Shown here piece by piece: positions 1,896 to 23,611 of a DNA stretch of 34,002 nucleotides. The stretch lies in NCBI GenBank assembly GCA_030426785.1, contig JAUHXY010000012.1, positions 1-34,002 of the forward strand, in the 5' to 3' direction. A program made the position numbers and the translations under genes. Source of the DNA: a bacterium (GTDB taxonomy: Bacteria; Planctomycetota; UBA1135; GCA-002686595). Every line of letters starts with the position of its first letter. The first letter of the stretch is position 1. Under the pieces are notes generated by a model. It was not told the origin of the DNA. It made no database searches and worked only from the letters and a program-made list of their open reading frames with translations.

Positions 1896-1936
1896 GCGGG
1901 GGGTGCGCTAGATGGCGCGCCCCCCGCGTTGTTTGG
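1896..1936 (+). terminator. intrinsic terminator-like hairpin after the sigma factor gene
   Basis: gcggggggtgcgc (1896-1908) pairs with gcgcgccccccgc (1915-1927) with one G.U, followed by gttgtttgg. Confidence 0.6.
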
Positions 1937-2057
1937 CCCTTTGCACGCCCTTAGTGGGTCCTGTTCCCGTCCGTTTTCCGGCGGCCGGGAAGCCCACCGG
2001 CGTAGAGCCAGACCCCCCGATCTGTTACCCTCCTCGGCTGGCTTCGCCGCATCGATC

Positions 2058-3107
2058 ATGTCTCAGCCCCCTCCCCCCAGCACACCGATTGACTTCGCGG
2101 CGGACCCCGTGGCGAAGCCCGGGTCCGTGCCGACCTCCGACCGTCGCTCCCAGGGGTCGACGGCGAAAGGCGTGGAGGGTCGCAAGCCCACCTGGTTGAA
2201 GGTGCCGTTGCCGGGCGGAGACGGCTACGCCAAGCTCAAAACCTTGGCCCGCGACCTCAACCTGCACACGGTTTGCGAAGAGGCCCGTTGTCCGAACATC
2301 GGCGAGTGTTGGAAAGGCGATCACGCCACCATGACTTTGATGGTGCTCGGGGACGAGTGCACCCGCCGCTGTCGTTTTTGCGCGGTGAAGACCGTGCAGA
2401 AGGCGGCTCCGCCCGATCCGCAGGAGCCCCAAAACGTGGGGCGCGCGGTCGGAGCGATGGATCTGGGTTACGTGGTGATCACGAGCGTCGACCGGGACGA
2501 TTTGGCCGATGGTGGCAGCGCTCACTATGCGGCCTGCATCGAAGCGATCCGCGAGCACTCCCCGCGCACCGTCGTCGAGACTTTGATCCCCGACTACCGC
2601 GGCAGCGACCTCGCAACTTTGATGGCCGCCCGGCCGGACGTGCTGGCCCACAACGTGGAAGTCGTCTCGCGCCTACAGCGCCGCATTCGCGATCCGCGCT
2701 GCAGCTACGAGCGTTCCCTCGAAACCCTGGTGCAAGCCAAGCAGCACTACCCGGGTGTTTTTACCAAGTCCTCCCTGATGGTCGGATTGGGCGAAACCGA
2801 AGAGGAGGTGCGTTTGGCCTTGCAGCTTCTGCGGGACGCGGACGTGGACTTCGTCACCCTCGGCCAGTATCTGCGCCCCACGCCGCAGCACGCTCCCGTG
2901 CGCGCCTGGATCACGCCCGAACAATTCATGGATTACGAGATCATGGGGCGCGACATGGGTTTCGCCTATGTGGCCTCCGGTCCGCTCGTGCGCTCGAGCT
3001 ACAAGGCGGGAGAATTCTTCGCCGCCCGCTTGGTGCAACAACGCCGCGCCCAAGAAGAACGCAACCAAAGCCCAGCCGGCAATCCTCCCTTCCAACCCCG
3101 ACCGTAA
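2058..3107 (+). CDS. lipA: lipoyl synthase
   Basis: Radical SAM motif CTRRCRFCAV, N-terminal cysteine motif CEEARCPNIGECW, and VITSVDRDDLADGG, LMVGLGETEEEV, YLRPTPQHAPV, VASGPLVRSSYKAGEFF. Start at MSQPPPP (2058) is an estimate. Confidence 0.97.
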   Translation: MSQPPPPSTPIDFAADPVAKPGSVPTSDRRSQGSTAKGVEGRKPTWLKVPLPGGDGYAKLKTLARDLNLHTVCEEARCPNIGECWKGDHATMTLMVLGDECTRRCRFCAVKTVQKAAPPDPQEPQNVGRAVGAMDLGYVVITSVDRDDLADGGSAHYAACIEAIREHSPRTVVETLIPDYRGSDLATLMAARPDVLAHNVEVVSRLQRRIRDPRCSYERSLETLVQAKQHYPGVFTKSSLMVGLGETEEEVRLALQLLRDADVDFVTLGQYLRPTPQHAPVRAWITPEQFMDYEIMGRDMGFAYVASGPLVRSSYKAGEFFAARLVQQRRAQEERNQSPAGNPPFQPRP

Positions 3108-3143
3108 CGCCCCGCCCCTTTCCTCGCGGGGAAAGGCCTTCGC

Positions 3144-4271
3144 ATGCAAACCACTCAGTCCACCGAACCCTTCCGCGTGATCTCCGGCGACGGAAGCGTG
3201 GGCAACCACCAAGTTGCCTTGACCGACGAGCAGTTGGTCCACTGTTACCGCACGATGTTGACCGTGCGCGCCTTCGACGACGTGTGCATGAAGCTGCAAC
3301 GCTCGGGCCGTATCGGGTTTTCGGTGCCCAACAAGGGGGTTGAGGCCTGTCAAGTGGGTGCGGCCAGCGCCCTGCGCCAGACCGACTTCTTCTTCCCGAG
3401 CTACCGCGACTTCGGTATGGCCCTGTACCACGGGGTGCAGCCGGTCGAGATGATGCACAACATGTTCGGCAACGCGAAGGACTCCGCGCTGGGCCGGCAG
3501 ATGCCCGTGCACTTCTCCTTTGTCGAGCCGATCAAGTTCTTTTCGATCTCCTCGCCCATCGGTACGCACCTGCCGCAAGCGGTGGGCGCGGCCCGCGCGT
3601 TCCAAATGCGCGGCGAAGATCACGTGGCGCTCGTCAGCTTTGGCGACGGCGGCACCTCGAGCCTCGGATTTCACAGCGCTTTGAACTTCGCGGGCGTTTG
3701 GAAGGCTCCGGTCATCTTCTTGTGCCAAAACAACGGCTGGGCGATCTCCTGCCCGGCCGAAGAGCAAACCGCTTCCGACGGTTTCGCCATCAAAGGCCAG
3801 GCTTACGGCGTCCCTGGGATCAAAGTCGACGGCAACGATGTGCTCGCTATGCATCAAGCGGTGAGCGAAGCCGCGGAGCGCGCCCGCCGCGGCGAAGGCC
3901 CGACTTTGATCGAAGCGGTGACCTACCGCATGGGCGGCCACTCGACCTCCGACGATCCCTCCAAGTACGTGCCCAAGGAAATCTTGGACCAATGGGCCGA
4001 GAAGGATCCGGTGCAACGGTTCCAAAGCTTCTTGAAGCAAAAGGGCCTGTGGTCGGAATCCTTGGAAGCCGACCTGACGCGCGAAGCCACCGAAGGCATT
4101 TCGGCCGCCGCCAAGGAAGCCGAAGCGACCGGTGCTCCCGGCCTCGAAACCATCTTCTCCGACGTGTACGCCGAACTGCCCGCGCACCTCCGCGCGCAAG
4201 GCGAAGCCGCGTTCGACCTGGCGCGCCGCAAGGGCAGCGCCGATGCCGGCGACGGCGCTTTCCCCCTCTAA
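3144..4271 (+). CDS. thiamine pyrophosphate-dependent 2-oxoacid dehydrogenase E1 component, alpha subunit (PDH/BCKDH-like)
   Basis: TPP-binding motif GDGGTSSLGFHSALNFAGVWKAPVIFLCQNN; phosphorylation-loop region YRMGGHSTSDDPSKY. Confidence 0.94.
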   Translation: MQTTQSTEPFRVISGDGSVGNHQVALTDEQLVHCYRTMLTVRAFDDVCMKLQRSGRIGFSVPNKGVEACQVGAASALRQTDFFFPSYRDFGMALYHGVQPVEMMHNMFGNAKDSALGRQMPVHFSFVEPIKFFSISSPIGTHLPQAVGAARAFQMRGEDHVALVSFGDGGTSSLGFHSALNFAGVWKAPVIFLCQNNGWAISCPAEEQTASDGFAIKGQAYGVPGIKVDGNDVLAMHQAVSEAAERARRGEGPTLIEAVTYRMGGHSTSDDPSKYVPKEILDQWAEKDPVQRFQSFLKQKGLWSESLEADLTREATEGISAAAKEAEATGAPGLETIFSDVYAELPAHLRAQGEAAFDLARRKGSADAGDGAFPL

Positions 4272-4339
4272 GCCAACCCGTCAGCTGCCCCCTTCCTCAG
4301 CGAACCCTCTGCCTTAGCGCGCTTCCCCACGCACCCTCC

Positions 4340-5314
4340 ATGCCCACCCTCACTCTCATCCAAGCCGTCAACGACGGCCTCAAAGTCGCCATGCGCCAGG
4401 ACGAGTCCGTATTGGTCTTCGGCGAGGACGTCGGCCCGAAAGGCGGCGTGTTCTTGGCGACCGAAGGTCTCACCGCGGAATTCGGGAAGGAGCGCTGTTT
4501 CGACACGCCCTTGTCGGAAGACGGCATCGTCGGCACGGCCATCGGCATGGCGGCGAACGGCCTGCGCCCGGTCTGCGAGATTCAGTTCCAAGACTTCATC
4601 TTTCCGGCCTTCGACCAGATCGTGTCGGAGGCGGCGAAGCTGCGCTACCGCTCGGGCGGTCAGTACACCGCCCCCATGGTGATCCGCACGCCCTACGGTG
4701 GCGGTATCCGCGGCGGTCTGTACCACAGCCAATCCGGCGAGGCGTACTTCACCCACACCGCGGGCCTCAAGGTCGTCATCCCGTCCACGCCTTACGACGC
4801 GAAAGGCTTGTTGCTCGCTTCCATCGCAGATCCGGACCCGGTGCTCTTCATGGAGCCCAAGGCCCTCTACCGCCACCTGAAGGCCGACGTGCCCGAAGGC
4901 CACTACACGGTCGACCTCTCCACCTTGCGCCAAGTGCGCGAAGGGGACGACGTGACCGTGTTCTGCTACGGCTCGATGGTTCCGGTGGTGGAAAAGGCCG
5001 CCAACAAGGCTGCGGAACAAGGCATCCACTGCCAAGTGGTCGACCTGCGCACCCTGTTGCCCCTCGACGAGCAAGGCGTGCTAGAAGCGGCCCGCAAGAC
5101 CGGCCGGGTGGTCGTGGTGCACGAAGCGCCGCGCTTCTGCGGATACGGCGCCGAGATCAGCGCCATCATCGCCGAGAACATCATCGAATACATGGAAGCC
5201 CCGATCCGCCGCGTGACCGGCTTCGACACCCCGTTCCCGAACACCCTCGAACATCACTACCTGCCCGACGAACGCCGGGTCCTCGACGCGATCGAAGAAG
5301 TCGCGAAGTACTAG
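4340..5314 (+). CDS. 2-oxoacid dehydrogenase E1 component, beta subunit
   Basis: VFGEDVGPKGGVFLATEGL, FDTPLSEDGIVGTAIGMA, FIFPAFDQIVSEAAKLRYRSGG, VVVVHEAPRFCGYGAEI. Starts at MPTLTLIQAVNDGL inside the longer ORF that begins at 3698. Confidence 0.95.
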   Translation: MPTLTLIQAVNDGLKVAMRQDESVLVFGEDVGPKGGVFLATEGLTAEFGKERCFDTPLSEDGIVGTAIGMAANGLRPVCEIQFQDFIFPAFDQIVSEAAKLRYRSGGQYTAPMVIRTPYGGGIRGGLYHSQSGEAYFTHTAGLKVVIPSTPYDAKGLLLASIADPDPVLFMEPKALYRHLKADVPEGHYTVDLSTLRQVREGDDVTVFCYGSMVPVVEKAANKAAEQGIHCQVVDLRTLLPLDEQGVLEAARKTGRVVVVHEAPRFCGYGAEISAIIAENIIEYMEAPIRRVTGFDTPFPNTLEHHYLPDERRVLDAIEEVAKY

Positions 5315-5339
5315 AACCCCTAGCACCACCATCATCCCA

Positions 5340-6971
5340 ATGATCGAATTCAAACTCCCCGACATCGGCGAGGGCGTGGCCGAAGGCGAAATCGTGCAAT
5401 GGCTCGTGAAAGAAGGCGACCAGGTCGAAGAGCACCAGCCGGTGGTCGAGGTCATGACCGACAAAGCCACCGTGGAAGTGCCTGCGCCCGCCGCGGGCGT
5501 GGTGAGCAAGTTCCTGGCCCAGGAAGGTGACACCATTCCGGTGGGGGACGTGATCTTCCATCTGGACAACGGCGCCGGCGGCGCGGCCCCTGCACCCGCT
5601 CAGGAGTCGGCTCCCGCACCGGCAGAAGCCCCTGCGGAGGCTCCGGCGGCGAGCGCGAACGGCAGCGTCCCCTCGGGCGGCGGCCAAACCATCGAGTTCA
5701 AGCTGCCCGACATCGGGGAAGGCGTGGCCGAAGGGGAAATCGTGCAGTGGCTCGTCGAAGAAGGCGCGTCCGTGCAAGAGCACGACCCCGTCGTCGAGGT
5801 CATGACCGACAAAGCCACGGTGGAAGTGCCCGCGCCCGTGAGCGGCACCATCGTGAAGCACTTAGCGGCAGCTGGCGATACCGTGCCGGTCGGCAGCGTG
5901 ATCTTCCACCTGGCCACGGCTGGCGGTGGCGCGGCGGCGCCCGCGAGCGCAGCGGCACCGGCCGCTCCCGCGCCGGCGGCCCCGTCCCACAGCGCGCCCA
6001 GCGCCGCTCCTTCGGCGCCCATTCAGCGCCCGGGCGGCAAGGTCCTCGCCGTGCCCAGCGCGCGCCGCGTGGCGCGCGAGATGGGCATCGACTTGGCGCA
6101 AGTGCCCGGTTCGGGTAACAACGGCGTGATCCGTCGCGCTGACGTGGAAGCCTTCGCCAAGAACGGCGGTGGCGCGGCGGCTGCGGCTGCCCCCGCAGCT
6201 CCCGCAGCGGCCAGTACTCCGACGGCTTCGCAAGCTCCGGCTCCCGCTTGGCAACCTCCCTCGAAGGAGGAGATTCGTGTGCCCTTCCGCGGCGTGCGCC
6301 GCAAGATCGGCGAAGCGATGGTGCGCTCGAAGTTCACCGCGCCGCACTTCACCGTCGTCGAAGAGGTCGACGTGACCGAGTTGGTCAAGGTGCGCGAGGT
6401 GGCCAAAGCCATCGGTGCCAAGCAGGGCATCAAAGTGACCTACATGCCCTTCATCATGAAGGCGGTGGCGAACTGCTTGATGCGCAACCGTATGTTGAAC
6501 GGCTACTTCGACGAAGCGGGTGGTGAAATCATTCAGCCCGGCCAGGTGAACTTGGGCATCGCGACCGACACGCCCAACGGTCTCATCGTACCCGTCATCC
6601 CGAGCGCGGAAACCAAGAGCATGTTGGAGCTGGCCGCCGAACTACAAGGGTTGGCCGAGCGCACCAAAGCGGGCAAGGTCAAGCCGCAGGAACTGAAGGG
6701 TTCAACGTTCAGCATCACCAACGCAGGCAACATCGGCGGCACGATCGCTACTCCGATCATCAATCACCCCGAGATCGCGATCCTGGGCGTGCACCGCATC
6801 GTCAAGCGCCCCGGCGTGGTCGAAGGACCCGACGGAGATCGCATCGAAGTGCGTCAATACATGAACTTCTCGTGCAGTGTGGATCACCGTTTGGCCGACG
6901 GCGCCGATGGCGCGCGCTTCTTGGCGGATCTGCGCCTCGTGCTCGAAAACCCGGGCTTGATCTCCCTGTAG
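5340..6971 (+). CDS. 2-oxoacid dehydrogenase E2 component (dihydrolipoamide acyltransferase) with two lipoyl domains
   Basis: Two EVMTDKATVEVPAP lipoylation motifs, Ala/Pro linkers, peripheral subunit-binding domain (AVPSARRVAREMGIDLAQVPGSGNNGVIRRADV), catalytic DHRLADG. Confidence 0.96.
   Translation: MIEFKLPDIGEGVAEGEIVQWLVKEGDQVEEHQPVVEVMTDKATVEVPAPAAGVVSKFLAQEGDTIPVGDVIFHLDNGAGGAAPAPAQESAPAPAEAPAEAPAASANGSVPSGGGQTIEFKLPDIGEGVAEGEIVQWLVEEGASVQEHDPVVEVMTDKATVEVPAPVSGTIVKHLAAAGDTVPVGSVIFHLATAGGGAAAPASAAAPAAPAPAAPSHSAPSAAPSAPIQRPGGKVLAVPSARRVAREMGIDLAQVPGSGNNGVIRRADVEAFAKNGGGAAAAAAPAAPAAASTPTASQAPAPAWQPPSKEEIRVPFRGVRRKIGEAMVRSKFTAPHFTVVEEVDVTELVKVREVAKAIGAKQGIKVTYMPFIMKAVANCLMRNRMLNGYFDEAGGEIIQPGQVNLGIATDTPNGLIVPVIPSAETKSMLELAAELQGLAERTKAGKVKPQELKGSTFSITNAGNIGGTIATPIINHPEIAILGVHRIVKRPGVVEGPDGDRIEVRQYMNFSCSVDHRLADGADGARFLADLRLVLENPGLISL
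5343..5920 (+). repeat. internal duplication encoding the tandem lipoyl domains (copies start near 5343 and 5691)
   Basis: atcgaattcaaactccccgacatcggcgagggcgtggccgaaggcgaaatcgtgcaatgg versus atcgagttcaagctgcccgacatcggggaaggcgtggccgaaggggaaatcgtgcagtgg; both copies contain gtcatgaccgacaaagccac. Confidence 0.85.
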
Positions 6972-7014
6972 CCTCGCGTCACCGCTCCCGTCTCCCTCGA
7001 CCCGCTTCGCGCCC

Positions 7015-8124
7015 GTGCCCCAGTTGATCCAACTGATCGATCCGCAAGGCCAGGTCCTCGGCGAACTGCCGGACCTGTCCGCGGACCGGCTGAAAGAGCT
7101 ATTCGTGCACATGCTGCGCGTGCGGGTGACCGATGGCCGCATGCTGACCTTGCAACGCGCAGGGCGCATCGGTTTTGTCGGCACTTCGACAGGGATGGAA
7201 GCTTCCCAGATCGGCTCGGCTGCGGCGCTCCAACCGCAGGACTGGCTGTGGTCGGGTTTGCGCGAGGGGGGCGCGGCGGTCATGCGCGGCCTGCCGCTCT
7301 CCGAATACGTGGCGCAGATGTACTGCAACGCCAACGACACGGCGAAAGGGCGGCAGATGTGCAACCACTTCCAGCACAAGGGGTCCCATTACCCGAGCTG
7401 GTCGTCGGTGATCGGCACGCAGATCCCTCACGGCGTGGGGGCGGCCCTGGCCAGCCAGCGGCGCGGTGAAGACGCGGTGCACGCGATCTACTTCGGAGAC
7501 GGTGCCACCTCGAGCAACGGTTTCCACAGCGGCATGAACTTCGCCGCCGTTTGGAAGGTTCCGGCGGTGTTCGTGTGCGTTAACAATGGCTGGGCCATTT
7601 CGGTTTCGGCCAAGCAACAAACGGCGGCAGAGTCCTACGCCCACAAAGCGAGTGCCTACGGCATGCCCGCGGCGCGCGTGGACGGCAACGATTTGTTGGC
7701 TTGTTATGCCACCATGCAGGCTGCGGTGGCCCGGGCCCGCTCGGGCGAAGGTCCCAGCTTGGTCGTGTTGGAGACCTACCGCATGATGGGGCACTCCTCG
7801 AGCGACGACCCGAGCAAGTACCGCGACGAGGCCGAGGTGGAACACTGGCGCACGCGCGATCCGATCGCGCGCTTTGAGCAGTATCTGCTCGCCAATCAAA
7901 TCCTAGAAGACGGTGAGCGTGCCACGATCGAGGCGACCTTGACCGCCGAAATCGATCGCGTCATCCACGAACAGGAGAGCGCCGATCCGATGGCGCTGAA
8001 GACCCTGGTGGAGGACGTGTACGCCGATGTGCCCAACCACCTGAAACGTCAGTACAACGACTTCATCGAAGTCGCCGAGCGCCATGGAGATGCCCAGCCG
8101 GGCGACGGCGCTTTCCCCCTCTAA
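7015..8124 (+). CDS. second 2-oxoacid dehydrogenase E1 alpha subunit paralogue (GTG start)
   Basis: GDGATSSNGFHSGMNFAAVWKVPAVFVCVNN and YRMMGHSSSDDPSKY; C-terminal GDGAFPL identical to the first E1-alpha. Confidence 0.92.
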   Translation: MPQLIQLIDPQGQVLGELPDLSADRLKELFVHMLRVRVTDGRMLTLQRAGRIGFVGTSTGMEASQIGSAAALQPQDWLWSGLREGGAAVMRGLPLSEYVAQMYCNANDTAKGRQMCNHFQHKGSHYPSWSSVIGTQIPHGVGAALASQRRGEDAVHAIYFGDGATSSNGFHSGMNFAAVWKVPAVFVCVNNGWAISVSAKQQTAAESYAHKASAYGMPAARVDGNDLLACYATMQAAVARARSGEGPSLVVLETYRMMGHSSSDDPSKYRDEAEVEHWRTRDPIARFEQYLLANQILEDGERATIEATLTAEIDRVIHEQESADPMALKTLVEDVYADVPNHLKRQYNDFIEVAERHGDAQPGDGAFPL

Positions 8125-8157
8125 GTCCCAGCACCGAGCCCTTCCGGGCTCAACCCT

Positions 8158-9570
8158 ATGAGCACTCCCCGCAAAGTTGTCGTCATTGGAGCCGGTCCGG
8201 CAGGTTACGTCTGCGCCATTCGTTTGGCGCAGCTCGGCCAAGAGGTCACGGTGGTGGAAAAGGAGTTCCTCGGGGGCACCTGCTTGAACGTGGGCTGCAT
8301 TCCCTCGAAGGCGCTCATCGCGGCCGGCAGCCTGATGGACAAACTGGCCCACGCCAGCGCCATGGGCATCACCGCGGAAAACGTCAAGCTCGACGTGCAC
8401 CAACTGGTGGAGTGGAAGCAGGGCATCGTTGGCAAGCTGACCGGCGGTGTGGGCGGATTGCTCAAGAACCACGGCTGCAAAGTCATCATGGGCAGCGCCA
8501 GTCTGGTCTCGAAGAACCAGGTCAAAGTGAAGTCGAGCTCGGGCGAAGAAACCTTGCAAGCTGACGACATCGTCATCGCCACCGGCTCGATCCCGATCGA
8601 AATCCCGGGGTTCGCCTTCGACGAAAAGGACGTGTGGTCCTCCACCGGTGCTCTCGCGCCCGAGAAGATCCCCGGACACATCGTGGTGATCGGAGGCGGT
8701 TACATCGGCCTCGAACTTGGCATGATGTACCGCAAGCTGGGCAGCCAGGTCACCGTCTTGGAAGCCACCGGCGGTGCCTTACCGGGGCAGGAGCGCGATT
8801 GCGTCAAGCAGATCGAGCGCAGCCTGAAGAAGCAGAAGATCAAACTGATGACCGAAACCTTTGCGCAAGGCTACGAGCGCAAGGGCGACAAACTGCTCGT
8901 CAACGTCAAGACCAGCAAAGGCAACGAAACCGTCGAGTGCGACCAAATCCTGTCCACCGTCGGCCGGCGCCCGTACAGCGAAGGCTTAGGCCTCGAAAAC
9001 GCCGGCCTGAAAGTGACCGAGCGCGGTTTCTTGCAGGTCGATAAGCAGATGCGCACGAGCGTTCCGAACATCTACGCGATCGGTGACATCGCTGGGCAAC
9101 CCATGCTGGCTCACAAGGGCAGCAAGGAAGGCCTCGTCGCCGCCGCGGTGATCGCGGGACAACCGGAGGAGTACGACGTGCGCTGCGTGCCTGCGGTCAT
9201 CTTCACCGCCCCGGAGATGGCTTCGGTGGGTCTGACCACCGAAGAGTGCGAGGAAAAGGGCCTCTCGATCGTCAGCGGTCAATTCCCGTTCGCTGCCTCG
9301 GGTCGCGCGATGAGCCTGATGGAAACGGACGGCTTCGTGAAGATCATCTCCGACGCAGAAACCGACGAGGTGCTCGGCGTACACATGGTGGGTCCCGAAG
9401 TGACCGAATTGATCGCGGAGGCGGCCTTGGCCATCGAGATGGGCGCCACCACCGAAGACATCGCGCGCACCATCCATGCCCACCCGACCTTGCCCGAGGC
9501 GATGATGGAGGCCGCGGAGGCCGTGCACCACATGGCCGTGCACATCTACCAAAAGCCGAAGGGCCGTTAG
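8158..9570 (+). CDS. lpdA: dihydrolipoyl dehydrogenase (E3)
   Basis: Redox-active GGTCLNVGCIPSKAL, FAD motif GAGPAGYVCAIRLAQLG, second dinucleotide motif GGGYIGLELG, C-terminal HAHPTLPEAMMEA. Confidence 0.97.
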   Translation: MSTPRKVVVIGAGPAGYVCAIRLAQLGQEVTVVEKEFLGGTCLNVGCIPSKALIAAGSLMDKLAHASAMGITAENVKLDVHQLVEWKQGIVGKLTGGVGGLLKNHGCKVIMGSASLVSKNQVKVKSSSGEETLQADDIVIATGSIPIEIPGFAFDEKDVWSSTGALAPEKIPGHIVVIGGGYIGLELGMMYRKLGSQVTVLEATGGALPGQERDCVKQIERSLKKQKIKLMTETFAQGYERKGDKLLVNVKTSKGNETVECDQILSTVGRRPYSEGLGLENAGLKVTERGFLQVDKQMRTSVPNIYAIGDIAGQPMLAHKGSKEGLVAAAVIAGQPEEYDVRCVPAVIFTAPEMASVGLTTEECEEKGLSIVSGQFPFAASGRAMSLMETDGFVKIISDAETDEVLGVHMVGPEVTELIAEAALAIEMGATTEDIARTIHAHPTLPEAMMEAAEAVHHMAVHIYQKPKGR

Positions 9571-9579
9571 GCCTATCCC

Positions 9580-10233
9580 ATGGGTTCCGTCCTGATCGTG
9601 TGTCCGCTGGGGCGGCGACCCTATGGGGAGATCCACGCACTGCAGCAGGAACTCTTGCGCGATCGCATCGCGGAGAAGATTCCCGACACCCTACTGTTGG
9701 TTGAGCACGACGAGGTCGTGACCCTGGGCCGGGGCACCCCGGACGGGGCGGCGGATGCGGTTTCGGTCCCCGTCGTGCCCGTAGAGCGCGGTGGCGAGGC
9801 GACTTATCACGGTCCGGGCCAGATGGTCGCTTATCCGATTCGCTACCTGCCGGAAGGGCAACGGGACCTGCATGCCTATTTGCGGCAGCTCGAGCAGGTC
9901 ATGATCGACGTGTTGGCGGAGCATGGCGTCGAGGGTCGGCGAGAACCCGGCAAGACCGGGGTTTGGATCGAATCGAAGAAGGTTGCCTCGATCGGGGTGG
10001 CCGTGCGCCGGTGGGTTACCTGGCATGGAGTGGCCCTCAACGGGACCACAGCGCTCGAAGCGTTCCGCGACTTTCAGCCCTGCGGACTGTCCTCGGAAGT
10101 CATGACGCGCTTGGCGGATCACTCCACGAGGCCTTGTGATCCGGAAGCTCTGGGCGAGCAATTCCGCTCTCACTTCGCCAAGCGCTTCGGTTATTCGATG
10201 GTGGAAATTCGTTCCGACCAGGGCTCAGACTGA
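9580..10233 (+). CDS. lipB: octanoyltransferase (lipoate biosynthesis)
   Basis: GGEATYHGPGQMVAYPIRYL, KTGVWI..KKVASIGVAVRRWVTWHGVALN. Confidence 0.95.
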   Translation: MGSVLIVCPLGRRPYGEIHALQQELLRDRIAEKIPDTLLLVEHDEVVTLGRGTPDGAADAVSVPVVPVERGGEATYHGPGQMVAYPIRYLPEGQRDLHAYLRQLEQVMIDVLAEHGVEGRREPGKTGVWIESKKVASIGVAVRRWVTWHGVALNGTTALEAFRDFQPCGLSSEVMTRLADHSTRPCDPEALGEQFRSHFAKRFGYSMVEIRSDQGSD

Positions 10234-10579
10234 GCGAAAAGCAGCCCACTTGCGGCACCGGAGAAACGGCTCGTCTCGGTTTGCGATACGAGACACCGAA
10301 AGCGCTCACTTGCTCTAAGTCAGCATCAGATTCGAATCCTCGGGCACCGAAGAAAGCGGGGTCACTGCCCCTGTAGAGCCGACCCGAAACGCGGTCGGAA
10401 CCCCCGATGTCTCTTCCTGCCCCGTCCGTTGCCCTACGTCGCACCCGAGTTTTGCGGGTCGATTGCGGCGCGGAGAGAGACCGCGGCTCGCGGGTGCGTG
10501 GCGTCCTGAGAGGGAAACCAACCGTCCACGAAATCCGCTGGGAGCCCACGCCGAGCGGTCTGCTGCCCTGGAGCTCGCA

Positions 10580-12598
10580 TTGAACGTCAACACTTTCGAA
10601 GAGATCAAACTCACCGGTAACCTGCCTTCCCCAGCCGGCGTCGGAGTCCGCATCCTGGAGCTCACACGCTCCGAGGAATACAGCGTCGATGACATGGGCG
10701 CTGCGATCATGACGGACCCGTCCCTGACCGGGCGCATCCTGCAGTTGGCCAACACCGGAGAACGCACGGGATCCAAGCCCGCGACGACGGTGGAAGAAGC
10801 CATCATGCGACTCGGGAGTCGCATGGTGCGCGACCTGGCTCTCGCGTTTTCGTTGGTCTCGGAACGTAGCACGGGTGCCTGCCAGGCCTTCGACTACGAG
10901 CAATACTGGTCGGCTTCGTTGGGCCGAGCGGTCAGCGCCCAGATCATCGCGCGTCGACTGGGAGAGAAGCGCCCCGAAGAGGCCTACATCTGCGGCCTGG
11001 TTGGCGACGTGGGACGTTTGGCCCTGGCTTCGGTCTACGCCGACTCCTACGGCAAGCTGCTGACGACCTGCCACTACTGCACCTTGGACGAGCTGATCGT
11101 CAAGGAAAACGAAGTCTTCAAAATCGATCACGCACAGATCGGGCGCTTCATGTTGCTGGACTGGGGTTTGCCCGACCTATTCTGCGACGCCTCTCTCAAA
11201 TACGCTTCCGAGCGTTCCTTGAAGAACCTGCAAGAGATCGAAGATCTGGCCGACATGCTGCGCGTGGGCTATTGGATCGGCGAGGCACTCGTCACCAGCG
11301 AGGATGCGCCCCCGTACTCCTGGCGCGTGATTGGCGATGAGTTGAAGCATGCGATGCGCTTGCTGGATATGAACGAAGCCCAATTCACTTCGTTTGCCAA
11401 CAGTTGCTCGAAAGAGTGGGTCATGTGGGGCAAAGCCTTCGACGTCTCCACCGGTGACGGCCAGAAGTTTCAAGACGTCTTCCGCTGGGTCGCGGAGCAT
11501 TGCCAAGCCGAACGACCCTCCGAAGCCGGTGCTGAGGATCTTGTTGTGGTTTCCACGGAAGCTACGTCCTCGACCAAGGCTGAGACCCCGAAAGCACCGA
11601 CCCCAAAAGAACGTCCAGCGAACGCGGTCCGCGTGATCGCGATCGGTCCGAACGCGATCGCGGCGGCACAAGGATGGGAAACCACCGCTCCGGATGGCTA
11701 CGAATTCCAATACGTCACAACGAGCGAGCAAGGCATGAAGGTGACCCTGAAGTGGGGCGCCGACATCGTCCTGGCCGACGAAAAGATGGATCAGCTCGAT
11801 GGGGTGCAGATCTGCAAGAGTCTGCGCAGCAACGATCTCGGATCGAGCTTGTACTTGATTGTGGTGGGACAATCTCCCTCCAAGAGTCGCGGTTTGGCGG
11901 CCTTCGCGGCTGGTGCGGACGACTTTGTCGAGTTGCCCAGCCCCTTGGAGGTGCTCGGTGCGCGCATCGCTGCCGGTGGCCGCGTCGTGGCCCTGCAACG
12001 CCGGGTGGAGCGCGACAAAGCCACCATGATGCGCCAAGTGGCGGAACTGGGCGTGCTCACGCGCAAGTTGCGTGCGACCGCTCTGACCGACGCGCTCACC
12101 GAGTTGCCCAACCGTCGCTACGCCATGAAACGGCTCGAAAGCGAGTGGTCTTCCACCAAGCGCACCGGGCGTCCCATCAGCGTTGTGATGCTCGATGTGG
12201 ATCACTTCAAAAGCGTCAACGACACGTTTGGCCACGACGTGGGCGATGAGGTCCTGAAAGAAACCGCAAAGATCATCCAGTCCTCGATTCGCACGTCCGA
12301 TGAAGCTTGCCGGATCGGCGGCGAGGAGTTCGTCGTGATCTGCAAAAACACCGACGAGCACGATGCTGCAGTGGTGGCCGAACGCATTCGTTCCGCTCTG
12401 GAGGAGCACATCATCCAGGCGGGGGGAATGAATCGTCCAGTCACCGCGAGCCTAGGCGTCGCCGGATACGTCCAGAACATGGCGATGGTCGCCGAACTGC
12501 TCAAGCAGGCCGACGAAGCTGTCTACGAAGCGAAGCGCCGCGGCCGAAACCAATGGGTCTTGTCCAGCGATGTAGAGAAGCTCCGCAAGAGCGCCTAA
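10580..12598 (+). CDS. HDOD - degenerate receiver - GGDEF protein (putative diguanylate cyclase)
   Basis: N-terminal HDOD-like region (LPSPAGVGVRILELT...DPSLTGRILQLANT), receiver-like middle, GGDEF domain with RIGGEEF and upstream RxxD (RTSD). Proposed TTG start aligns with the paralogue N-terminus and has GGAG upstream; the ORF track extends to 10463. Confidence 0.85.
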   Translation: MNVNTFEEIKLTGNLPSPAGVGVRILELTRSEEYSVDDMGAAIMTDPSLTGRILQLANTGERTGSKPATTVEEAIMRLGSRMVRDLALAFSLVSERSTGACQAFDYEQYWSASLGRAVSAQIIARRLGEKRPEEAYICGLVGDVGRLALASVYADSYGKLLTTCHYCTLDELIVKENEVFKIDHAQIGRFMLLDWGLPDLFCDASLKYASERSLKNLQEIEDLADMLRVGYWIGEALVTSEDAPPYSWRVIGDELKHAMRLLDMNEAQFTSFANSCSKEWVMWGKAFDVSTGDGQKFQDVFRWVAEHCQAERPSEAGAEDLVVVSTEATSSTKAETPKAPTPKERPANAVRVIAIGPNAIAAAQGWETTAPDGYEFQYVTTSEQGMKVTLKWGADIVLADEKMDQLDGVQICKSLRSNDLGSSLYLIVVGQSPSKSRGLAAFAAGADDFVELPSPLEVLGARIAAGGRVVALQRRVERDKATMMRQVAELGVLTRKLRATALTDALTELPNRRYAMKRLESEWSSTKRTGRPISVVMLDVDHFKSVNDTFGHDVGDEVLKETAKIIQSSIRTSDEACRIGGEEFVVICKNTDEHDAAVVAERIRSALEEHIIQAGGMNRPVTASLGVAGYVQNMAMVAELLKQADEAVYEAKRRGRNQWVLSSDVEKLRKSA

Positions 12599-12626: not shown

Positions 12627-14672
12627 GTGATTCAAAAGCGATTCGACGAAATCCGGCTCACTGGAGCCCTCCCTTCGCCCTCCGCGATTGGTCTACGCAT
12701 TCTAGAGCTCACGCAGGATGAGAATTACGAGCAAGCGGACCTGATCCAGACGATCATGGCCGACCCGGCCTTGACCGGTCGCGTGCTGCAGATGGCGAAC
12801 AGCGCGTTGCACGGCGGCGGCATGCCGATCGAGACGGTGCGCGAGGCTTCCATGCGCCTGGGTTCGAAAGCGCTGCGGGCTTTAGCGCTCGGATTTTCCC
12901 TGGTGGAGCAAAAGGGCTCGGGCCCCGTGGGTGGCTTAGACCACCACGCGTTTTGGTCCCGTTCTCTCGCCACAGCGGTGGCGACCAGCGTCCTGTCCTA
13001 CGAGTGTCGCGCCTGGTCTCCGGCCGAAGCCTTTACCTGCGGGCTCCTGGCGGATATCGGAAAACTGGCCTTCGCCAACCTGTACCCCCAGAAGTACGAG
13101 CGCTTCATGAACCTGCCGCTCGCCTTCCACGATTGGCGTTTGGCGAAGCTCGAGTCGTGCGCGTTTGGCGTCAACCACGCCGAGGTCGCTAGTCTGATGA
13201 TGGAGGATTGGGGCCTCTCGCGAGCCCTGAATTACGCGGCGCTGCACGTGATCAACAAACCCACGGGTCCCATGCCCAAGGCGTCCGACGGAGGGGCGGA
13301 ATCCCTCACGCGGGTGCTACGCGCGGGTCGCGCCATCGCGGACGTGTTGACCCTCGATCGCGACACCGGCGAAAAGCTGTGGTTGCCAGCGTTCTTCCGT
13401 CTGGAGCAAATCGCGGAGGAGATCGAAGTGCCGGTGGAGCAGCTCTACCGGCTCGGGAACCAAATCGTGCCGGCTTGGCAAGAGTGGGGTGCCTTGTTGG
13501 GGGTGCCTTCCGGCCAGGCCCTCGATTTCGAAGTCGTGGCCCAAGAACTCTCTACCGCTGGCGTTACGGCGAAAGAAGATCCCGCCACGGTGGAGCCCAG
13601 CGAAGCGCAGTGCAACGACCTGCGCGAAATGGCCGGAGAGGAACCGCAAGCCGCGGAAGAGGTGCGCGCCGAAGAATCGGATGACTCCGCCACCCGCGTG
13701 CTGCTGATCGACGATGATGAGCAAATGCTGCGGCTCCTAAGCCACTACCTGCAGCGCGCCGGCTTCGAAGTCGCCACTGCGGATACCCCCAGGGACGGGC
13801 TGCGCAAAGCGGTTTCGCTGATGCCGCACATCGTGGTGACCGACTGGATGATGCCGGGCATGACGGGGATCGAACTGTGTCGCGCCTTGCGCGAAACGCC
13901 GGCCGGCAAGCGCATGTACGTGCTGCTCGTCACCGCGCGCGGTGACGACACCCAGGTGCTCGAAGCCTTCGATGCGGGCGCGGACGACTACATCGTCAAG
14001 CCCTTCAACCCGCGCATCCTGGTCGCCCGCGTGCGCGCGGGCCAGCGGGCCGTCGAGATGCGTCAGAAGGTCGAATCGTCGGAGAAACTCCAGCAGCGCC
14101 AGATCGCCCACATGGCCATCATGACGCGCAAGTTGCGCCAAGCGGCGCTGACAGACGTGCTCACCAACCTTCCCAACCGTCGCTACGGCATGAACCGTTT
14201 GCAGGAGGAGTGGGAAAACGCCACCCGCATGCAGCGTCCCATTTCGGTGGCGATGATGGACATCGACTTCTTCAAACGCGTCAACGATCAATACGGCCAC
14301 GACGCAGGGGATGCGGTGCTCGTCCATTGTGCCGAAGTCTTGCGCAACGGAGTGCGCCGCGGGGACGTGCTGGCCCGTTTGGGCGGTGAAGAATTCCTGC
14401 TGATCCACGTGGGGGCGACGCTGGAAGAGGCGCGCAAGACGGTCGAACGCCTGCGCACCGCGGTGGAGGAGATCGTGATCAAGCATCACCCCGAAGAGTT
14501 GCGCATCACCATGAGCTTCGGTGTGGCCGAACGCAGTCCGGATCACGAGACGATCGACGACCTGATGAAAGACGCGGACAACGCGCTCTACCAGGCCAAA
14601 GAACAGGGCCGCAACCGCGTCGTCCTGCACCGCCCCGCGCCCCCGGACGGGGAACTGCGCAAGGGCGCCTAG
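12627..14672 (+). CDS. HDOD - receiver - GGDEF response regulator (putative diguanylate cyclase), GTG start
   Basis: HDOD-like N-terminus paralogous to the previous gene; canonical receiver VLLIDDDEQ...VVTDWMMPGMTG...LVTARGD...GADDYIVKPF; GGDEF with RLGGEEF and RRGD I-site. Confidence 0.93.
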   Translation: MIQKRFDEIRLTGALPSPSAIGLRILELTQDENYEQADLIQTIMADPALTGRVLQMANSALHGGGMPIETVREASMRLGSKALRALALGFSLVEQKGSGPVGGLDHHAFWSRSLATAVATSVLSYECRAWSPAEAFTCGLLADIGKLAFANLYPQKYERFMNLPLAFHDWRLAKLESCAFGVNHAEVASLMMEDWGLSRALNYAALHVINKPTGPMPKASDGGAESLTRVLRAGRAIADVLTLDRDTGEKLWLPAFFRLEQIAEEIEVPVEQLYRLGNQIVPAWQEWGALLGVPSGQALDFEVVAQELSTAGVTAKEDPATVEPSEAQCNDLREMAGEEPQAAEEVRAEESDDSATRVLLIDDDEQMLRLLSHYLQRAGFEVATADTPRDGLRKAVSLMPHIVVTDWMMPGMTGIELCRALRETPAGKRMYVLLVTARGDDTQVLEAFDAGADDYIVKPFNPRILVARVRAGQRAVEMRQKVESSEKLQQRQIAHMAIMTRKLRQAALTDVLTNLPNRRYGMNRLQEEWENATRMQRPISVAMMDIDFFKRVNDQYGHDAGDAVLVHCAEVLRNGVRRGDVLARLGGEEFLLIHVGATLEEARKTVERLRTAVEEIVIKHHPEELRITMSFGVAERSPDHETIDDLMKDADNALYQAKEQGRNRVVLHRPAPPDGELRKGA

Positions 14673-14842: not shown

Positions 14843-14876
14843 AGGAAAGAAAGAAGGGCCGCGGTTGCGGCCCTTC
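14843..14876 (-). terminator. intrinsic terminator of the minus-strand coiled-coil gene
   Basis: Perfect 10-bp stem gaagggccgc-ggtt-gcggcccttc (14853-14876); on the minus strand it is followed by TTTCTTTCC. Confidence 0.8.
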
Positions 14877-14901: not shown

Positions 14902-17900
14902 CTATTGGCGCACCTTGTGGTGCTTGTCGTGTAGGCGTTTGGCCTTGGAGACCCAGCGCTCCTTCTTGATGCGGTCGAGGGGCACGTCGATCTTTTCGGC
15001 GAGCAGTTCGAGCTTGCGCGGCGTGTCGACGGCCGCGAGGCGCTTGAAGGTGGTGATGCCCGCGTCTTCCAAGAGCTTGGCGTAGCTCGGACCGATCCCG
15101 GTGATCTCCTGTAGGTTGTCCTTGGCGGCAGGCCGCTTGGTCGCGGCTTTCTTGCTGCTCGCCTTCTTGGCGGTCGTTTTTCGGGCGGCGGTCGAAGTGC
15201 TCTTGGCCTTCTTGGCGCTGGCCTTGGAGGTGCTGGCTTTCTTGGGGCTCGCCTGCTTCGTCTTCGCCGGAGCAGCGGCCTCTTGGACAGCCGTAGCGCC
15301 GGACGAACTCGCCGCAGCGGAGCCTGAAGGAGCACTCGGCTTCGAGCTCTCCGTTTTGGGCTTCGTGCTCGCCTGGGCCGGACCTTCCAACTTGCGCTGC
15401 AAGCGGGCGATTTCCGCCTCGCGCAAGCGCACCGTCTTCTCGGCTTGCTTCGCCTGACGTGTGAGATCTTTCACCTTGAGCTCGTAGCCGGTCATCTGCG
15501 TGTGCGCCGACTTCAGCTTCTGCTCGACCTGGTGCAGCTTGAGCTGCCCGGCGCGGTGCTGGGTGGCCATGGCACTGCTTTGGGTCTTGGCCTTGGCCAT
15601 CTCCTCCTTCAGCTCCTGGCTTTGGGCCTTGAGGATCTCGATCTTCTGGTCGCGGTTTTCGCACATGCGCTGGGCTTTGGCGAGTTCGCGTTCGACGCTC
15701 TGCAGCGTCTTCTTGCCGTCTTTGAGGGCGGATTCCTTTTCCGCGAGTTGCGCGCGTTCCGTTTCCAATTCGGCGAGCAGCTTGGCCCGTTCGCTTTCGC
15801 TTTGGGTCTCCAGCCCTTCGAGCTCTTGCTTGGCTTCCACCAAATGGGTTTCGGTGCGCTCGATGCGCTCAGGCAGGATGGAGAGGTGCGAGACCTGCGA
15901 GCGCAGGGTCTCGATTTCGCTCTGCAACGACTCGACCTGAGCGTCCCGCTCCTTGAGCAGGGCCGGCAGGGGCTCCAGTTCAAAGACCCGTTGGCGCAGG
16001 CTTGAGATCTCTTCCTTCGAAGAATCGCCTTGCTCTTGCACGCGTTCGGTGAGCAAACGCACTTCCGCTTCGCGCTCGGCCAACTGCAACTGCTTGGGTT
16101 CCAATTCGCTCAAACGCTTTTGGAGATCGGCGATTTGCTTGCGCGAAGAATCGCCCAAGTTCTTGAGCTCCGCCTTCCAGGCCTTGGCCTGGGTTTCGGA
16201 CGCGGCCAGCTTGGCTTCGAGCGGGGCCACGCGCTTGGCTTGGGCGCGCAGTTCCTTGATCTCGGCCCCGGTGCTCTCCTGCAACATGGCGAGCTTGGTC
16301 TGGGCTTCCTCCAAGGACTTTTCGCGCTGCGCCAATTGCGCCGGCAGGGGATCGAGCTGCTCGAGGCGACTCTGCATTTGGGCCATCTCCATGGCCTGTT
16401 GCTCCTGGCTGCGGTCCAAGCTGCTGCTGAGCTGCTGGACGGCGGCACGCGACTCGTTGAGCTCCTTTTCGAGGGGCTCCAAAGCTTGCACGCGCTCCTG
16501 CAGTTTGCGCACGGTGTTGGTGCGTTCTTCCGCCAATTCGTCGTAGCGCTCGCGCAGGTCGGTCAATTGGGCTTCCGCCTCGGCGCATTGCTCTTCGAAC
16601 GGCTCCAGTTCGACCAAACGCTTCTCCAAGGCCGCAATCTGCTTGGTGGTTTCGAGTTGCACCTCCTGCAGGGTGGCTTGCGTGCCTTGTAGTTCTGAGC
16701 TGGTGGACTGGGCGCGTTGCTCGAACGGCTCGAGATAACCGACGCGCTTTTGCAGGGCTTCGATCTGCTCGCGGCTCGTGCTTTGCAGCTCCTGCAATGC
16801 GGCCTGCGTGCTCGCTAACTCTTCGGCCGTCTCCTGTGCCTCGAGCTGGAAGGGTTCCAGTGCGTTCACCCGTTCTTGCAGTTCCGCGATGCTGGTTTGG
16901 CTGACCCGTTCCAGTTCGGCGTGTTGGCTCTGTAAGGTTTGCAGCGCCGTCTGCGTCTCCTTGGCCCGCGCTTCGAACGGCGCCAATTGCTTCACCTGCT
17001 GCTCGAGCTTCGCGATCGTCGCTTGGCTTTCGCGCTGCAGAGTCTCGTGCTCCTTGCGCAGGGCGCGCAATGCCCCTTGAGACTCCGTCGCGCGCGACTC
17101 GAACGGCGCCAGCTTGGAAACGCGTTGCTCCAAGGTCGCGACGGCGGACTGGTGCTTTTGCAACAAAGCCTTGTGCTCGCCCTGCAGGGAATGCAACTCG
17201 GTACGGGTCTTAGAGAGCTGGCTCTCGAGGGGTTCGAGCACCGCCACGCGCGAAGACAACTCGCGCACCTGCTGCTCGCTCTCCTTCTGCAGGTTTTGGT
17301 GAGCGCGGCTCAGGTCCGCGAGGGCGCGCGAGCGCTGCTCCAACTGCTCGGGCATCGGGCGCAGGTTGCGCATGCGCTCGTGGAACCATGTGGTTTGGGT
17401 CTGAGTGCGGTCGAAGAGCATCTGGTGCTTGCGCCGCAGGTCGGCCAGCTCGCGGCTGCGGGCTTCCAGTTCCTTGGGCAGGCGGCTCATGTTCTCGAGC
17501 TGCTCTTCCTTCTCCTTGAGCTGCACGATTTCCCGGGCTTGCTGCGCGACCTCTTCGCGGGCCTCCTCCAAGCGCGCCTCCAGGTCATCACGCTCCCGGG
17601 AAAGCTCCCGGAACACGTTGGACTTGCGCTTCGACTCGCCGGAGGCCGCCTCGACCTGGTTTTGCAGGGCGACGACCTTCTTGCGCAGGTCGGCGGTGGT
17701 GTTCTCGCGCTGCTGGAGGCTGAGCTCCAGTTGCTTTTTGAGGGCTCCCGAGTCCTGCAGGGTCTGCTGCAGCTCGGCGATCTTGGCCACGTGTCCCTCG
17801 AAGGTGGCCTTGATCTTGCGCACCTCGATGTTGTTTTGGTTGAGGGCTGCGACCGCGGCCTCGCGGTCCGCTTCCGCCAAACGGAACTTGCGGTCCCACA

Positions 17901-18006
17901 ACTCCTGCTGCACGCGGCGCGTGCGGGTGTTGCGCTGGAGTTGGAACAGGTGCCACGTGAAGCCCCCAAGCAGGACCCCTCCCAGGATCAAGAATAGTTC
18001 TTGCAT
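14902..18006 (-). CDS. membrane-anchored coiled-coil repeat protein with H1-like basic linker and C-terminal helix-hairpin-helix domain
   Basis: N-terminal hydrophobic segment LFLILGGVLLGGFTWHLF; long heptad-rich region; Lys/Ala/Ser-rich tract (KTKQASPKKASTSKASAKKAKSTSTAARKTTAKKASSKKAATKRPAAK); C-terminal LQEITGIGPSYAKLLEDAGITTFKRLA of HhH type. Confidence 0.9.
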   Translation of the reverse strand: MQELFLILGGVLLGGFTWHLFQLQRNTRTRRVQQELWDRKFRLAEADREAAVAALNQNNIEVRKIKATFEGHVAKIAELQQTLQDSGALKKQLELSLQQRENTTADLRKKVVALQNQVEAASGESKRKSNVFRELSRERDDLEARLEEAREEVAQQAREIVQLKEKEEQLENMSRLPKELEARSRELADLRRKHQMLFDRTQTQTTWFHERMRNLRPMPEQLEQRSRALADLSRAHQNLQKESEQQVRELSSRVAVLEPLESQLSKTRTELHSLQGEHKALLQKHQSAVATLEQRVSKLAPFESRATESQGALRALRKEHETLQRESQATIAKLEQQVKQLAPFEARAKETQTALQTLQSQHAELERVSQTSIAELQERVNALEPFQLEAQETAEELASTQAALQELQSTSREQIEALQKRVGYLEPFEQRAQSTSSELQGTQATLQEVQLETTKQIAALEKRLVELEPFEEQCAEAEAQLTDLRERYDELAEERTNTVRKLQERVQALEPLEKELNESRAAVQQLSSSLDRSQEQQAMEMAQMQSRLEQLDPLPAQLAQREKSLEEAQTKLAMLQESTGAEIKELRAQAKRVAPLEAKLAASETQAKAWKAELKNLGDSSRKQIADLQKRLSELEPKQLQLAEREAEVRLLTERVQEQGDSSKEEISSLRQRVFELEPLPALLKERDAQVESLQSEIETLRSQVSHLSILPERIERTETHLVEAKQELEGLETQSESERAKLLAELETERAQLAEKESALKDGKKTLQSVERELAKAQRMCENRDQKIEILKAQSQELKEEMAKAKTQSSAMATQHRAGQLKLHQVEQKLKSAHTQMTGYELKVKDLTRQAKQAEKTVRLREAEIARLQRKLEGPAQASTKPKTESSKPSAPSGSAAASSSGATAVQEAAAPAKTKQASPKKASTSKASAKKAKSTSTAARKTTAKKASSKKAATKRPAAKDNLQEITGIGPSYAKLLEDAGITTFKRLAAVDTPRKLELLAEKIDVPLDRIKKERWVSKAKRLHDKHHKVRQ
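15979..17490 (-). repeat. twelve consecutive 42-codon (126-bp) units encoding the coiled-coil repeats
   Basis: Counted by hand from residue 173 to 676: units start MSRLPKEL, LRPMPEQL, LEPLESQL, LAPFESRA, LAPFEARA, LEPFQLEA, LEPFEQRA, LEPFEEQC, LEPLEKEL, LDPLPAQL, VAPLEAKL, LEPKQLQL, each 42 residues. A truncated unit (LEPLPALL..., 31 aa) follows. Confidence 0.9.
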
Positions 18007-18299
18007 GATCGTCCTTCCGGATCATGGGGGAACCCTAGGTACCGTACCTACCCCTTCGAGTTCGCGTTCGGACCCCCCCGACCGATGGGCCGATCCTAGC
18101 GATTGAACCCCTTGGATTCCCGATTTCCTTAATAAGGTGACGCGAGAATGGGTTTGTGGCCCTCGACTGGGTCGGAAGAGGCCGTGGGTGGGGGCCGGAA
18201 AGGCTTGCGAGAGGGGGCGAATCTACCCAGGAGAGGCGCGAGAGCCCTTCGCATGCGCGTCTTGCGCGGTACCATCGGGCGCTTCCCACCCCGCTCCCC

Positions 18300-22123: not shown

Positions 22124-23611
22124 ATGAGCGCCGCCCCTTCGTTTCGCAAATCCGCCGCCGTCATGGTCGTGCGGTCGACCGACCGCGGTGCGGAAGTGTT
22201 GCTCGTGCAGCGCAACCCGAAGCTGCGCTTCTTTGGCGGCTACTGGGCGTTCCCCGGAGGCGTGGCGGACCGCATGCCGGATGGCGGACGGGAGGACTTC
22301 CTCACCTGCGCCGCGCGGGAGTTGTTCGAAGAAACGGGCCTGCACTTTGCCCCCGAGTTGCGCGCTCTGTCCCCCGCGCACCGCACCGCGCTGCGCCGAC
22401 GATTGCTGGAAGAGGAGGGCTCTGCAGCGCGACCGACCGTCGCTTGGCACGTCGACGCCCCGCTGCAACCCCTGGGACAACTGCGCACCCCCGCGTTCGC
22501 GCCGGTTCGCTATCGCACCCAGTTCTATCGTTGCGATCTGCCCCCTGGGCAAGAGCCCGAGATTTGGCCAGGAGAGCTCGCTGCCGCCGAGTTCGTCGGT
22601 GTGGAGAAGGTGCTGGCGCAGTGGCGCCGGGGCGAACGTTTGATCGTACCGCCCGTGCGCACTCTGCTCGAGTGTTGGCACGAGGCCGGTGCAGAGGCCT
22701 TCGCGGAGCACGCCCGTGTGCGTTGCGAGGCGTTTGAGTCCGGGGCGATCGCTCCGATCATGAATTCTCCGGGCATCTGCATGATTCCGTTGCGCACCCC
22801 GACCGTGCCACCTGCGACGACCACCAACCACTATTTGGTGGGGCACGAGCGTTTGGTCTTGATCGATCCCGGCACGCCTTATCCCGAGGAGCAAGCGCGC
22901 TTGATGGGATTCCTCGACGAGCGCATCGCGCGCGGAGCTCGGTTCGAAGCCTTGGTGCTGACCCATCGCCACCACGATCACGTGGCCGCCGTGCCCGCCT
23001 TGGAGCGGCGCTACGGAGTGCCCGTTCTCGCCCACGCGGATACTCTGGCCCAACTACCGTTTGCGGTGCAGCGTCCCGTGGAGTGCCACGACGGGCAGCG
23101 CATCGAACTTGGCGCCGCACCCGACGGGTCTCCCCATTGGGCGCTGGTGGCGCTGCACACGCCGGGGCACGCTGCTGGGCACTTCGTCTTCCGGGATACG
23201 CGCTACGGGGCCATGCTGGGCGGGGATTTGGCTTCCACCATGTCGACGATCGTGATCGAGCCGCCGGAAGGTCACCTCGCGACCTATCTGGACAGTTTGC
23301 AGCGGGCTATCGACGCCAAGCCGGGCTTGTTTTACCCGGCTCACGGCCCCGTGGCCCGGGATGGCGTGGCGTTGCTGCGCGGATACCTGCAGCACCGACG
23401 GGTGCGGGAGGAGCGTTTGGTGGCGCTGCTAGCCGACCGCGCTTGGGAGGACGAACAGGAATTGGTCGAGGCGGTGTACACCGACGTGGCGCCGGAGGTG
23501 CACGGTTTGGCGCTGCATTCCCTGCGTGCGGGTTTGATCAAGTTGGAGGAAGAGGGCCGCGCGAGGCGTGGGGAACGGGGTTGGGTCGGGGTTGGCGAGG
23601 GGGCTGCCTAG
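22124..23611 (+). CDS. Nudix hydrolase - metallo-beta-lactamase fusion protein
   Basis: Nudix region GGYWAFPGGVADRM...REDFLTCAARELFEETGL; MBL motifs THRHHDHVAAV, HTPGHAAGHFVF, LGGDLAS, and a LACTB2-like C-terminal tail. Confidence 0.88.
   Translation: MSAAPSFRKSAAVMVVRSTDRGAEVLLVQRNPKLRFFGGYWAFPGGVADRMPDGGREDFLTCAARELFEETGLHFAPELRALSPAHRTALRRRLLEEEGSAARPTVAWHVDAPLQPLGQLRTPAFAPVRYRTQFYRCDLPPGQEPEIWPGELAAAEFVGVEKVLAQWRRGERLIVPPVRTLLECWHEAGAEAFAEHARVRCEAFESGAIAPIMNSPGICMIPLRTPTVPPATTTNHYLVGHERLVLIDPGTPYPEEQARLMGFLDERIARGARFEALVLTHRHHDHVAAVPALERRYGVPVLAHADTLAQLPFAVQRPVECHDGQRIELGAAPDGSPHWALVALHTPGHAAGHFVFRDTRYGAMLGGDLASTMSTIVIEPPEGHLATYLDSLQRAIDAKPGLFYPAHGPVARDGVALLRGYLQHRRVREERLVALLADRAWEDEQELVEAVYTDVAPEVHGLALHSLRAGLIKLEEEGRARRGERGWVGVGEGAA

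Follow-up and report, generated by a model that had tools for sequence, protein, structure and literature searches.

The window analysed here is a stretch of 34,002 nucleotides from a bacterium of the Planctomycetota (contig JAUHXY010000012.1 of assembly GCA_030426785.1). Its minus strand contains a gene encoding a predicted membrane-anchored coiled-coil protein of 1034 amino acids. The protein is composed of an N-terminal transmembrane helix, a heptad-rich coil of about 850 residues, a Lys/Ala/Ser-rich tract resembling histone H1 tails and a C-terminal helix-hairpin-helix (HhH) domain. A preliminary description of the locus had proposed these four parts together with a role as a membrane-to-DNA tether. 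Its coordinates, its count of twelve 42-residue units and its domain order are all correct, as judged by the open reading frame, self-identity and proline phasing, and each of the four parts has been confirmed by computation. The gene and its features are as follows.

14902..18006, minus strand: complete gene for the 1034-residue, predicted membrane-anchored coiled-coil protein (open reading frame, G+C content at third codon positions (GC3) of 0.83, presence in 41 of the 81 family genomes)
18012..18018, minus strand: Shine-Dalgarno-like GGAAGGA with an AAGGA core, 5 nucleotides upstream of the ATG (sequence)
17944..18000, minus strand: N-terminal transmembrane helix, residues 3-21, predicted N-out/C-in (hydrophobicity and positive-inside rule)
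17821..17919, minus strand: conserved juxtamembrane helix RRVQQELWDRKFRLAEADREAAVAALNQNNIEV, residues 30-62 (invariant columns in two family alignments)
15382..17940, minus strand: coiled-coil rod, residues 23-875 (heptad pattern; AlphaFold2 helices in the modelled part)
15847..17358, minus strand: twelve exact 42-residue units, each initiated by a proline, from P217 to P679, with the motif LEP[LF]E
15127..15321, minus strand: Lys/Ala/Ser-rich, H1-like tract, residues 896-960 (composition and basic-segment score)
14905..15126, minus strand: HhH tail domain, residues 961-1034 (PF14520, AlphaFold2 and RadA N-terminal fold)
14853..14876, minus strand: intrinsic terminator with a 10-bp stem, about 25 nucleotides past the stop codon (sequence)

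Predicted membrane anchor and coiled-coil rod

The gene is complete and ordinary, since its GC3 of 0.83 is accompanied by a Shine-Dalgarno-like site and a strong terminator. The G+C contents at codon positions 1 and 2 are 0.67 and 0.40, respectively, and the pattern is coding-like.

The transmembrane helix has a mean Kyte-Doolittle hydrophobicity of 1.58, and a hydrophobicity scan along the 1034 residues revealed no second membrane-like stretch. It is followed by the juxtamembrane stretch RRVQQELWDRKFRLAEADREAAVAALNQNN, which is the best conserved portion of the protein family in the alignments. More positive charge is found after the transmembrane segment than before it in 40 of 40 members, and the N-termini are mostly neutral or acidic. 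Because the positive charges follow the membrane segment throughout, the rod should be cytoplasmic according to the predicted topology. A signal peptide with a periplasmic rod was also considered and is disfavoured by the position of the basic residues, which lie after the membrane segment and not before it. Extra N-terminal sequence is possible in the homologue L052 and in that of strain Poly30, in which the start sites are uncertain.

The rod is built from a regular repeat, whose phased prolines occur at residues 217, 259, 301, 343, 385, 427, 469, 511, 553, 595, 637 and 679. Self-identity over residues 171-720 is 0.325 at a lag of 42, 0.264 at a lag of 84 and 0.248 at a lag of 126, compared with a highest value of 0.152 at any lag in a shuffle control (n = 300). 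Hydrophobic residues are located at positions -12, -9, -5, -2, +1, +5, +12, +15, +19 and +22 from each proline and almost nowhere else. As 42 residues correspond to six heptads, every unit comes back to the same register. The mean pairwise identity among the repeat copies is 27% for protein and 43% for DNA; judged by their sequences, the copies are old.

An AlphaFold2 model of the first 345 residues contains helices at 2-173, 178-215 and 220-341. The helix is broken at P177 and at P217-x-P219 and continues through the single prolines 259 and 301; the pTM of this model is 0.26, so that its global arrangement is uninterpretable. The rod would presumably dimerise, and residues 23-880 would span a calculated length of about 127 nm at full extension.

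A clade-specific family with a variable repeat

A profile of the N-terminal region detected exactly one copy of the gene in each of 41 of the 81 genomes of its own GTDB family, which represent 20 of 42 genera. In a sample of 295 genomes from the phylum, all eight matches fell inside the same family, with no match among the approximately 275 genomes sampled from elsewhere in the phylum, and the matches of a search at order level were confined to it as well. The full-length protein does not reach the cut-off of any Pfam or NCBIfam model, which agrees with the earlier view that the combination of domains belongs to no named family, and the database searches yielded no full-length match to a characterised family with a non-DNA role. 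It is an undescribed, clade-specific protein family.

The number of repeats ranges from a few to about 20 across the members and differs even within a genus. Among the closest relatives, the repeat profile, which also counts imperfect units, gives 18 matches in L047, 15 in L066 and 14 in the window protein. Prolines are spaced by 42 residues in most members, by 49 in L021 and by 84 where one proline is missing. Of 293 proline spacings, 145 are multiples of 7, against an expectation of 1 in 7, the spacings being non-independent owing to the common ancestry of copies and of species. Prolines are few or irregular in more divergent members, among them L025, L032 and L062.

Several partial matches were rejected as identifications. 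Matches to SMC, Rad50 and SpiroCoCo models reflect sub-threshold coiled-coil similarity; the full-length SMC score, for example, is 79.7 bits against an NCBIfam cut-off of 567, and no SMC ATPase head domain was found in the protein with Pfam. Pfam and NCBIfam likewise gave no match to the DUF536 region or N-terminal DNA-binding domain of RocS, to a ComEA-type HhH, or to intermediate-filament, DivIVA or EzrA models.

The regularity of the rod bears on a possible but rather unlikely reading, in which the protein would be a membrane-attached cytoskeletal scaffold. Lateral assembly of the rods would produce a filament or meshwork beneath the membrane, which would give the cell its shape, and the basic tail or HhH would serve only for assembly or for contacts with lipids or proteins. 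The fixed heptad phase and the regular proline positions suit a lateral register, and EzrA-like proteins share the N-out/C-in topology. The named records that contain the gene are mostly labelled Planctomycetota and include the complete genome of Poly30 (CP036434), which we take to belong to the Saltatorellus clade. Members of that clade are reported to change shape and to possess the actin-like protein saltatorellin, and Planctomycetota generally are reported to lack FtsZ (PMC11032199; PMC11481906). However, a pure scaffold needs no conserved, compensating cationic tail, about half of the family genomes yielded no copy of the gene, and the intermediate-filament, DivIVA and EzrA models gave no match.

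The cationic tail and its possible partners

Residues 896-963 contain 17 Lys and Arg (15 of them Lys), 2 Asp and Glu, 22 Ala and 12 Ser. The basic-segment score of the tract is 9.8, above the 99th percentile (9.5) of 285 neighbouring open reading frames, a background that includes shadow frames and therefore makes the percentile conservative. The HhH domain scores 27.1 bits against HHH_5 (PF14520; cut-off 27) when isolated and a sub-threshold 20.1 bits in the whole-protein scan, and the model matches 17 of 17 family tails at E ≤ 0.01. Gly10 and Gly12 of the GhG hairpin are invariant in the HhH tails. The AlphaFold2 model of the domain has five helices with a pLDDT of 82.9. Foldseek matches of this model to BAF-like structures (TM-score about 0.54, E 0.39) were too weak to use.

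Related modules occur elsewhere in the same genomes. Poly30 encodes two more short membrane-anchored proteins (L097 and L101) with a C-terminal HHH_5 module, one of which also has a coiled stretch; the module is thus repeatedly joined to membrane anchors in this strain. In the genome from which the window derives, a short frame at positions 229-648 of L002 (contig C7) encodes a highly acidic stretch rich in Glu, Val and Pro, which precedes the first half of the HhH module and is oppositely charged to the basic linker in the coiled-coil protein. A 145-residue frame in the same genome (L102, contig C55) contains two tandem HhH-like units.

Nearly all complete members retain a cationic C-terminal region, whereas the HhH is present in 22 of 34 complete members and absent from 12. 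On the tree, its distribution needs four changes, three of which are forced by well-supported branches. Three members with the HhH (L027, L029 and L059) have little or no basic tract. The homologue L030 (contig G027:C85) is 567 amino acids long and has neither basic tail nor HhH; it may be a frameshifted, disrupted or mis-assembled copy, or a real loss. Members without the HhH carry larger basic tails, with a median net charge of +18 versus +8 in those with it (Mann-Whitney p 0.004). From this correlation among related sequences, the basic tract and the HhH would seem to serve one purpose, which may be to bind an anionic partner and probably a nucleic acid. The tail is thus a putative nucleic acid binder, and its ligand would most likely be chromosomal DNA. 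Hairpin profiles of the HhH match DNA polymerase beta (E 0.002) and RadA (E 1.8e-5) among PDB sequences, and the best Foldseek matches of the model are to the RadA N-terminal domain fold (TM-scores of 0.61-0.67).

The same domain has closer relatives of another kind, which lend themselves to a reading that is improbable overall. The HhH would recognise a protein partner and the coil would keep this partner near the membrane, the Lys-rich tract being a flexible linker. It may do so likewise on complex I, protein-O, L21, S2 or phasin. Its top sequence matches are non-DNA membrane or ribosomal proteins; an invariant Trp in its last helix, outside the hairpin, is shared with the complex I and protein-O tails; and the two further membrane-anchored proteins of Poly30 carry the same module. 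However, the HhH is dispensable, and where it is absent it is seemingly replaced by more basic sequence and not by another folded domain.

A tether for RNA or ribosomes, in which the basic tail would keep either of them near the membrane, is very unlikely. It draws on the L21 and S2 ribosomal-protein models, in which related HhH tails occur with Lys/Ala-rich linkers. A Pfam scan found no RNA-binding domain in the protein, and the neighbourhood has no pointers to translation beyond a tRNA gene and an HrpB helicase gene, whose position is conserved and not diagnostic.

A membrane-to-nucleoid tether or spacer is the favoured reading, with a probability of roughly 0.45. The single N-terminal helix would insert N-out/C-in in the inner membrane, with the conserved basic juxtamembrane helix next to it, and a self-associating coiled-coil arm of up to about 127 nm would reach into the cytoplasm. 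The arm would consist of modules of 42 residues, or six heptads, each opening with a proline that would form a hinge or kink, and duplication or deletion of modules would alter their number with the heptad register kept. At the far end the Lys/Ala/Ser tract, the HhH or both would bind nucleic acid, most likely chromosomal DNA, and the nucleoid would thereby be tethered to, or spaced from, the membrane. An extension of this reading is doubtful: the number of modules would set the distance between nucleoid and membrane in a clade without FtsZ, and the DNA-gripping end would have been swapped repeatedly between H1-like tail and HhH.

A number of observations weigh against this reading. RNA, ribosomes and acidic lipids are further possible ligands of a basic tail. 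The gene is not universally required in its own family, because about half of the genomes, many of them incomplete, gave no match. The test of tail charge takes related sequences as independent. The Foldseek E-values for the HhH model are weak, 0.19 at best. Among PDB sequences, the nearest relatives of the HhH are the tails of the complex I 41-kDa subunit (E 1.6e-14) and the reaction-centre protein-O (E 2.8e-12), and NCBIfam models of L21, NuoE, S2 and phasin overlap the domain. The authors of the protein-O study note the same tail on other proteins and call its function obscure (PMC12079452). The net charge of the HhH ranges from -4 (Poly30) to +10, so that in some species contact may be made chiefly by the Lys-rich tract.

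The anchor and the rod of the preliminary proposal have held up as predictions, whereas DNA as the partner has been weakened by HhH relatives on respiratory, photosynthetic and ribosomal proteins and by the unconserved charge of the domain. The best reading is a tether or spacer whose far end would bind an anionic partner, because the anchor, the predicted cytoplasmic rod and the cationic tail are conserved and absence of the HhH is paired with a larger basic tail. As far as sequence comparison can indicate, a tether is plausible, and the comparative data have made it more so.

Gene surroundings and comparison with known systems

A tRNA-Met gene on the opposite strand adjoins the 3' end of the coiled-coil gene. 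In relatives, the gene is often divergent from HrpB, which stands alone or is paired with DUF1499, an arrangement that fits vertical inheritance. A phage origin is unsupported, because the PHROGs matches are all weak and of coil type (a tape-measure model at E 0.005 among them), each genome has one copy and the synteny is conserved. Two neighbouring plus-strand genes (10463-12598 and 12627-14672) both encode HDOD, response-regulator and GGDEF domains in the same order and are apparently a tandem duplication; the receiver domain scores 32.6 bits in the first versus 96.9 in the second. One plus-strand open reading frame (22124-23611) encodes a NUDIX domain and a metallo-beta-lactamase fold with a BLACT_WH domain, and homologues of it are found near the coiled-coil gene in L024, L056 and L060. 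A 2-oxoacid dehydrogenase and lipoylation cluster (1929-10233, plus strand) includes genes for lipoyl synthase, two E1 dehydrogenase components, E2, dihydrolipoyl dehydrogenase and LipB.

Membrane-DNA tethers exist in bacteria, as RocS and Rv3852 show. RocS, a chromosome partitioning protein of Streptococcus pneumoniae, joins membrane and nucleoid via a coiled coil and is a proposed DNA-membrane tether (PMC11500499). RocS and, by prediction, the window protein combine a membrane-binding end, an oligomerising coiled coil and a DNA-binding or DNA-binding-like end in a single chain. However, the DNA-binding domain of RocS is N-terminal and is accompanied by DUF536 and a C-terminal amphipathic helix, whereas the window protein has an N-terminal transmembrane helix, a proline-phased coil of about 850 residues and an H1-like plus HhH tail. 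Rv3852, a mycobacterial nucleoid-associated protein, contains H1-like KAAK/PAAK repeats and a transmembrane segment and is membrane-tethered while bound to DNA (PMC8233713). H1-like Lys/Ala repeats (residues 896-963) are likewise found here on a protein with a predicted membrane anchor, but the anchor of Rv3852 is C-terminal, whereas the only transmembrane helix here is N-terminal, and the long coil and HhH are absent from the description of Rv3852 (PMC8233713). No sequence relationship to RocS or Rv3852 was found; the window protein would work like either of them, yet it belongs to neither.

The competence DNA receptor ComEA also has an N-terminal membrane anchor and a C-terminal HhH DNA-binding domain (PMC4777378). 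Unlike ComEA, the window protein has a topology that points to the cytoplasm, a rod of about 850 residues and an HhH of the HHH_5/DUF4332-like type. Long heptad-rich coils are shared with SMC and Rad50 (profile scores up to 79.7 bits), in which the ATPase heads set these proteins apart. The tails of the complex I 41-kDa subunit and of protein-O, which is also membrane-anchored and has a long flexible linker (PMC12079452), share the entire module with its conserved Trp helix. Both proteins belong to energy-converting complexes and lack a long coil; with the window protein, a predicted membrane-anchored case joins the complex I and reaction-centre proteins that carry this module.

Restricted to one clade and present once per genome, an arm whose phased modules vary in number and whose cationic tip is exchangeable is a candidate link between envelope and chromosome in these Planctomycetota, and a homologue is encoded in the complete genome of Poly30.
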